In this document: in pieces, positions 5,186-32,862 of the stretch
How positions within the stretch are numbered: position 1 is the first letter of the stretch
How the letters are laid out: each line of letters begins with the position of its first letter
From: Thiorhodospira sibirica ATCC 700588
GTDB taxonomy: Bacteria > Pseudomonadota > Gammaproteobacteria > Ectothiorhodospirales > Ectothiorhodospiraceae
Reading direction: 5' to 3'
DNA length: 60,625 nt
Assembly: GCF_000227725.2 (NCBI RefSeq)
Contig: NZ_MU255056.1
Span: 859,312-919,936, forward strand
Notes under the pieces: model-generated
Seen by the model: the letters and a program-made list of their open reading frames with translations, nothing else
Databases searched by the model: none
What the model was told of the DNA's origin: nothing
Made by a program: the position numbers and the translations under genes

Positions 5186-5659
5186 TTATGCAGAAGGGAT
5201 GGTGTCGTTTGGGTCAAGCCCTGCCGCAGCGGCCTGGCGGTTTTCTGCGCGGATGCGCTGGCGGATGCGTTCCAGGGCTTGCTCGCCAATGGAGCGCACC
5301 ACCGGATTGACCAGTCGCCCGAGGGTTTTATCCAGCAGGCGGCTGGGCAGTTGATAGCTGATCACCAGATGAACCTGGGTGCCTGCCCCCGCCGGGGTGA
5401 TGTGATAACGCCCGGTGTTGGGGATGCCACTGAGCGAGCGCCAGACAATGGTGGTGGGCGGGACACATTCGACGATGGCCACATCCCAGGAAAAGACCTT
5501 ACCGGCGGCGCGCACCTGCCAGCGGTAGCGGTCGCTGCCCAAGGGGACGATGGATTCCACCGCATCGCTGTAGCGGCTGAATTCTTCGACCTTGCGAATC
5601 AGCCCGAATACGCGCTCCGGGCTGGCTTCCAAAAACATCTGCTGCTCAATATCAGGCAT
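5186..5659 (-). CDS. START-like (SRPBCC/COQ10-type) lipid-binding protein
   Basis: 157 residues with the start of a helix-grip domain, FLEASPERVFGLIRKVEEFS, then alternating strands including YRWQVRAAGKVFSWDV and TIVWRSLSGIPNTGRYHI, and a long C-terminal helix. This is the polyketide-cyclase/COQ10 family, which binds hydrophobic ligands such as quinones. It does not look close enough to RatA to claim a ribosome-linked role. The C-terminus (ENRQAAAAGLDPND) is probably disordered. It sits between the CBS gene (18 bases upstream) and the MBL gene, in what looks like one operon. Confidence 0.75.
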   Translation of the reverse strand: MPDIEQQMFLEASPERVFGLIRKVEEFSRYSDAVESIVPLGSDRYRWQVRAAGKVFSWDVAIVECVPPTTIVWRSLSGIPNTGRYHITPAGAGTQVHLVISYQLPSRLLDKTLGRLVNPVVRSIGEQALERIRQRIRAENRQAAAAGLDPNDTIPSA

Positions 5660-8074: not shown

Positions 8075-8095
8075 ACGGACAATCTCCTTTTCGGA

Positions 8096-8205
8096 AGCGC
8101 CGAGTTATACTCGGCTTGGTTTTATGGAACGCCGACGTGGAGTCGGCCCTACCGGCAAACATCACGCGACGCCTGCGGCTTGGTTGCCGAGTACCACTCG
8201 GCGCT
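8096..8205. repeat. Interspersed palindromic repeat, two arms facing each other
   Basis: AGCGCCGAGTTATACTCGGC (8096-8115) and GCCGAGTACCACTCGGCGCT (8186-8205) are inverted copies with two mismatches. The 70 bases between contain TATGGAACGCCGA (8123-8135), a second repeat module also found at 32201, 34043 and 46591. The same arm pair occurs inside gmhB at 32275-32343. The element is in the gap between ispA and the DUF1538 gene. A T-run after the right arm (8210-8216) could make it a plus-strand terminator. Confidence 0.8.
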
Positions 8206-8246
8206 CCTTGTTTTTTTGCCGCAGGATTAGCCGGGTAGGTATGCGC

Positions 8247-32199: not shown

Positions 32200-32862
32200 C
32201 TATGGAACGCCGCTCACCAAAGCGGCATGAAGGAGCTCATCCGCCACAGCAGCCAGATCATCAAAGACGCGGGCGGAGCGCCGAGTTGTACTCGGTTCGT
32301 CGGGACACGGATTAAAAACCAGCCGAGTACAACTCGGCGCTCCACCTAGACGCGCTAAGGTCTGCTGGCCTTTGCCGGTGCGTACCAGAATCGGCTGGCA
32401 GTGCATGGCGGCCGCACATTGCAGATCCCGCAGGGCATCGCCAACCGCCGCCACGCCGTGCAGATTCACCGCAAAGTGGGCCTGAATCTGCTCAAACAGG
32501 CCGGGTAGCGGCTTGCGACAGCGACATCCCGTCTGTGGCCCGTGCGGACAATAAAAAATACCCGCAATCTGGCCGCCCATTGTAGCAATCATTTGTTGCA
32601 GCGTGGCATGTATTTCATGCAAGGTATGCAGGGATAGCAGGCCACGGGCCACTCCGGACTGATTGGTGGCAATCACCACGCGAAAGCCGGCCTGTGATAA
32701 GCGCACGATGGCCTCAAGGCTTCCAGGGATCGGCACCCATTCGGCCACGGACTTGATATAGGCATCGGAATCATGATTGATCACGCCATCCCGGTCCAAA
32801 ATCACCAGCCGGGCGGGGTGTGCGGTCAATGCGGGGAGGGGCGTGCGTACAACGGCGGTCAT
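32200..32862 (-). CDS. gmhB: D-glycero-beta-D-manno-heptose-1,7-bisphosphate 7-phosphatase, with an inserted palindromic element
   Basis: HAD phosphatase that dephosphorylates heptose bisphosphate for the LPS core. The nucleophile motif is VILDRDGVINHDSDA, then ATNQSGVARG, the zinc loop CPHGPQTGCRCRKP and GDALRDLQCAA. Start is probably the ATG at 32862 (220 residues); the frame extends 18 codons upstream. The C-terminal region is unusual: between LARLG and ARVFDDLAAV a 23-residue segment (GAPSCTRLVFNPCPDEPSTT followed by RRS) is encoded exactly by the palindromic repeat at 32275-32343. Without it the length would be about 197. The last codons and stop come from a second repeat module at 32201-32232. 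The core catalytic domain is intact. Confidence 0.85.
   Translation of the reverse strand: MTAVVRTPLPALTAHPARLVILDRDGVINHDSDAYIKSVAEWVPIPGSLEAIVRLSQAGFRVVIATNQSGVARGLLSLHTLHEIHATLQQMIATMGGQIAGIFYCPHGPQTGCRCRKPLPGLFEQIQAHFAVNLHGVAAVGDALRDLQCAAAMHCQPILVRTGKGQQTLARLGGAPSCTRLVFNPCPDEPSTTRRSARVFDDLAAVADELLHAALVSGVP
32201..32232. repeat. Repeat module 2, overlapping the gmhB 3' end
   Basis: TATGGAACGCCGCTCACC then AAAGCGGCATGAAG. Close copies lie at 34043-34074 and 46591-46622 and a diverged one at 8123. The copy encodes the final HAALVSGVP and stop of gmhB on the minus strand. Confidence 0.85.
32275..32343. repeat. Palindromic element inserted in frame inside gmhB
   Basis: Two perfect 21-base inverted arms (32275-32295 and 32323-32343) flank a 27-base loop; total 69 bases, exactly 23 codons. 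Each arm is itself near-palindromic (CCGAGT-TGT-ACTCGG). The arms match those of the intergenic copy at 8096-8205. No stop is introduced in the gmhB frame. Confidence 0.9.

Follow-up and report, generated by a model that had tools for sequence, protein, structure and literature searches.

REP elements have been described inside genes of several species, over half of them as dimers or groups coding for 20–30 residues, and the intragenic examples include uvrA of Thioalkalivibrio as well as O. terrae and Rickettsia (PMC3733652, BMC Genomics 2013). The GTAG and CGTC REPs of that study are short hairpins which mostly form inverted dimers, lie mainly in intergenic regions and are in some cases found in frame in ORFs. 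CGTC REPs, including RPE-4 and RPE-6, carry a CGTC tag at one end and possess a stem of 8–9 bp with a loop of 4–5 bases. In Pseudomonas fluorescens two inverted REPs and a spacer form the dispersed REPINs, hairpins of about 70 bp or longer (PMC3116915, PLoS Genet 2011). Rickettsia palindromic elements (RPEs) measure about 150 bp, fall into several families and insert in frame in conserved genes; nearly half of the first-described RPEs of R. conorii were reported in ORFs (PMC10969869).

A comparable element is read in frame within the gmhB gene of Thiorhodospira sibirica ATCC 700588. The following features belong to the analysed stretch of 60,625 nucleotides, which is referred to as the window:

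32200..32862, minus strand: gmhB, D-glycero-beta-D-manno-heptose 1,7-bisphosphate 7-phosphatase, 220 aa
32275..32343, no strand assigned: very probable REP dimer (REPIN), 69 bp, in frame in gmhB, residues 174-196 (G174-S196), GAPSCTRLVFNPCPDEPSTTRRS
32275..32296, plus strand: REP unit 1, GGAGCGCCGAGTTGTACTCGGT, consensus except for one mismatch
32297..32321, plus strand: spacer, TCGTCGGGACACGGATTAAAAACCA, resembling in the alignment those of other 69/70-bp copies
32322..32343, minus strand: REP unit 2, GGAGCGCCGAGTTGTACTCGGC, exact consensus
8094..8207, no strand assigned: three related REP units, intergenic, between a membrane-protein gene and the farnesyl diphosphate synthase gene (ispA)

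The first-pass annotation had recognized a stop-free palindrome of 69 bases at 32275–32343, and this description was confirmed at the stated coordinates: the arms of 21 bases (32275–32295 and 32323–32343) are perfectly complementary and enclose a loop of 27 bases. The element is the longest near-perfect inverted repeat of the window and folds far better than shuffled sequences (z of -8.8 as DNA and -9.1 as RNA). It is read in phase 0, starting on a codon boundary, and 3' of it the gmhB frame leads back into the enzyme's conserved end, VFDDLAAVADELL.

Each arm corresponds to one hairpin of 22 bases, GGA[G/T]CGCCGAGTNNNACTCGGC: the head GGA[G/T] precedes the hairpin CGCCGAGT-NNN-ACTCGGC, whose stem has 7–8 bp and whose loop has three bases. 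Of 130 units, 74 have G and 54 have T as the fourth base of the head, after GGA, and stem variants with CGACT/AGTCG occur in the family. The arm motif was found five times in the window, where 0.24 occurrences were expected and the maximum in 100 shuffles was two. The genome as a whole contains 150 units with up to three mismatches (reversed-pattern control: four), so the repeat postulated earlier is indeed dispersed and by no means confined to gmhB. With a covariance model derived from 28 copies, 135 matches were obtained in the genome (E <= 0.01, both strands counted), and the gmhB element is the best of them with 92.9 bits. Besides single units and tandem arrays there are 45 inverted pairs with a common spacer, mostly of 69–70, 77 or 85 bp (up to 86), and the conserved spacer of these dimers comprises 25 bases.

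In 28 aligned pairs, the base pairs within an arm are kept in 98.7% of the cells (95.6 in shuffles) and show a covariation of 0.096 compared with 0.037 in shuffles, none of 500 shuffles being as high, whereas covariation of arm-to-arm pairing did not exceed the shuffles. The unit is therefore a REP hairpin, and the element an inverted pair of REPs. The earlier term "mobile palindromic repeat" holds in so far as the repeat is dispersed; it is, however, made up of two inverted REP hairpins and not a plain long palindrome. Likewise, the intergenic region at 8096–8205 had been considered a copy with the same arms, but the three-unit cluster found at 8094–8207 has other loop letters and a divergent head and is only related.

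A second set of stems (GCGGAGC, GCGTAGC, GCGCAGC and GCACAGC) shares the GGA-N-CG head and accounts for 188 matches, compared with two in the control. A scan of the retrieved stretches which disregarded the stem detected 232 units, and one in shuffled sequence. Further REP-like arrangements were seen elsewhere. One is a mosaic REP array (L186:3047-3919; G000:C5:198446-199318) at the end of which a 24-base tandem repeat of GGATCGCCGAGTTGTACTCGGCTT is located, and another consists of six REP-like units such as GGACCGCGCAGCACCAGCTACGC, which follow each other every 33–36 bases (L295, G000:C4:2451698-2451888).

Tens to hundreds of dispersed, mostly extragenic hairpin units and inverted dimers with a spacer, as are typical of REPs and REPINs, are thus both present. 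The sequence differs from that of the P. fluorescens REPINs, and far fewer copies exist here. Compared with the families of PMC3733652, the head is GGA[G/T] instead of GTAG or CGTC. As the GTAG (or GTGG) head of RAYT-linked REPs is lacking, the unit is not placed in the GTAG superfamily and is described only as a REP-type dimer. With regard to CGTC REPs, the outer end is again GGA[G/T], and although GTC often follows the stem on the inner side, the consensus is not CGTC. RPEs, to which the first-pass annotation had compared the element, are indeed similar in form; this comparison missed the REP literature, in which in-ORF dimers of 20–30 residues are already known (PMC3733652), and the statement that coding insertions are unusual outside Rickettsia is not supported. 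The phenomenon itself is hence known; the present case concerns other genes (gmhB, nuoG and nuoL), which are not named in the main text of PMC3733652, and a REP class with a GGA[G/T] head, a mildly notable trait.

The identity of GmhB is supported by matches (NCBIfam NF006506, 219 bits; PDB 3l8h, 4pnh and 2gmw), its start codon at 32862 being deduced from homologues, and no second GmhB-type match was found in the genome, so that this gene is the only one. At 32204–32226 a GGAACG-hairpin with one mismatch overlaps the last gmhB codons, which is no more than chance would produce in the window. Codon scores remain like those of a gene on either side of the element (0.33 upstream, 0.30 downstream). 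Alignment with approximately 100 GmhB homologues, from relatives and a collection of species genomes, showed that the residues of the insert are absent from all of them, and none of these repeat-free proteins carries the same 23 residues. The linker from TGKG to the DL of the last helix mostly comprises 16–17 residues (72 homologues) but 36 residues here, which corresponds to a net gain of 19–20 residues and not of 23; the 23 codons given by the first-pass annotation are the length of the element itself. Without the 69 bp, the linker would be 3–4 residues shorter than those of relatives. Either the insertion was no clean addition or the flank has changed since, and some linker bases were lost or changed besides the entry of the element.

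GmhB retains the residues which are invariant among its homologues, including the DRDG motif and the C/H/C/C site. In an AlphaFold2 model (39 sequences) the core reached a pLDDT of about 95, and the insert blocks were loose with values of 66–79, which matches the expectation for a tolerated surface loop. We consider it very probable that the gmhB feature is a REP dimer which was inserted in a linker. The dimer would have entered this variable linker immediately ahead of the enzyme's final strand and helix, having presumably been copied there by a RAYT (REP-associated tyrosine transposase). As the element has 69 bp and is stop-free in frame, GmhB can still be made with a surface loop of about 20 residues, and the enzyme presumably still works. 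The case is clear and checkable, with a REP dimer serving as protein sequence in core genes of heptose synthesis and, as described below, of complex I.

The gene context was evaluated for copies in the retrieved genome stretches, degenerate copies being taken from the matches listed. When 66 clusters of the gmhB-element family were judged by codon scores, 64 were placed outside coding sequence and two inside, namely those in gmhB and nuoG. NuoG (818 aa; NCBIfam NuoG, 562 bits) contains an in-frame copy of 77 bp, corresponding to about 23–24 residues, which is missing in 24 relatives. Since 77 is not a multiple of three, extra bases must have changed there too. A related cluster of the second stem family is located in nuoL, in a linker which is also variable among relatives. 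The nuo operon from nuoN to nuoF (L213; G000:C4:1917600-1933200) is densely studded with REPs: within 15.6 kb it harbors ten clusters of the two stem families, occupying almost all junctions between genes as well as sites within nuoL and nuoG, compared with four clusters in the 60.6-kb window, and may represent a hot spot.

The suggestion that the repeat is able to enter genes and is tolerated there consequently stands for gmhB and nuoG, where it is in frame, but the 64 noncoding clusters speak against an adaptation to genes. As bacterial genomes are mostly coding, the scarcity of genic copies means that insertions into genes are for the most part lost or avoided, and two of 66 clusters show how rarely such insertions survive there. 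Entry into genes is rare, and the survivors are in frame and located in linkers. Selection would have removed insertions that broke genes, leaving such in-frame survivors. The element may still be moving at present.

Several other candidates for intragenic copies were rejected. N-terminal "insertions" were discarded for Obg, PilX, NuoE and a methylase ORF, because the element is situated 5' of the likely true start and is thus intergenic. Long ORFs across many REPs without a Pfam match were dismissed as spurious in view of the many open frames of REP arms. REP-derived C-terminal tails of a dinitrogenase-reductase ADP-ribosyl hydrolase and an LpxH-like protein (L198) are protein ends and not internal insertions, and a possible further insert in nuoM (L213, about position 5400) revealed no REP-like palindrome in the DNA by eye.

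A coding-adapted palindrome in the manner of RPEs, selected to enter genes with a benign peptide, would account for the openness of the sequence: 65 of 84 arms of 22 bases are open in all six frames, and whole dimers have on average 3.2 of six frames open, compared with 2.7 in dinucleotide shuffles. As roughly half of the six frames of a dimer are open, a stop-free landing in frame is not improbable. Against such an adaptation, 17 of 42 dimers have a length divisible by three, which is near chance, the frame in which the element is read differs between gmhB and nuoG, and the two coding clusters of 66 contrast with the large share of RPEs in ORFs, which moreover are longer and have another host and sequence. 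An adaptation of this kind is extremely unlikely. Movement as a MITE by a DDE transposase, with terminal inverted repeats and target duplications in place of a RAYT-linked REP dimer, is very unlikely too. The inverted ends and dispersed copies would agree with it, and on both sides of the gmhB copy, 3–4 bases away, lies the 7-base direct repeat AGACGCG. Taken as a target-site duplication, this repeat would set the net insert at 83 bp, in conflict with both the frame and the linker lengths, and it was rejected. Furthermore, no target duplication was visible by eye in the flanks of 130 units, single units and tandem arrays occur, and the constraint is on the hairpin in each arm.

A maintained functional addition, either as a new loop of GmhB or as an mRNA hairpin affecting expression, might be suspected from the very stable RNA hairpin (-45 kcal/mol), the presence of REPs in three respiratory or envelope genes and the perfect arms of the gmhB copy, which is accordingly either young or conserved. 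The element is not conserved outside this genome, though, and the insert is modeled as a loose loop with low confidence, so we regard such a function as very improbable. It is similarly improbable, if slightly less so, that selection keeps REP dimers in the nuo operon and gmhB for RNA hairpins or encoded loops that tune expression or assembly. That the repeat was put into gmhB by the assembly can hardly be assumed: it is a multi-copy repeat seen in the assembly alone, but its 69 bp are shorter than the usual read length, gmhB is open and gene-like on both sides of it and nuoG and nuoL show the same pattern.

One RAYT gene was detected (NF047646, 86.5 bits, cut-off 80), and a cognate RAYT of the GCCGAGT stem family was not found in the genome, which is 98% complete. 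On either side of the RAYT gene stand REPs which share the GGAGC head but carry another stem (GCGGAGC, not GCCGAGT). REPs adjacent to a RAYT are reported to be able to change by mutation into a new class, which then multiplies and leaves older classes behind (PMC3686654), and a turnover of this type would fit the stem mismatch observed here.

Rfam yielded only below-threshold matches to microRNA hairpins, which were taken as chance, and no exact copy of the element was present in viral contigs. Among 58 relatives the palindromic core was seen in just one more genome, where it forms a single palindrome whose loop is different. The full unit is restricted, among 369 genomes of the class, to this genome and one distant genome (G103; L248, L250 and L251), which possesses three copies, at least two as inverted pairs and one with the compensated stem GCCAAGT..ACTTGGC. 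The family is therefore not unique to this organism, though rare. The frame of the RAYT gene (L141:1339-2043) enters its own flanking REPs, which form its C-terminal residues, and the peptide of this tail is also encoded by REPs elsewhere.
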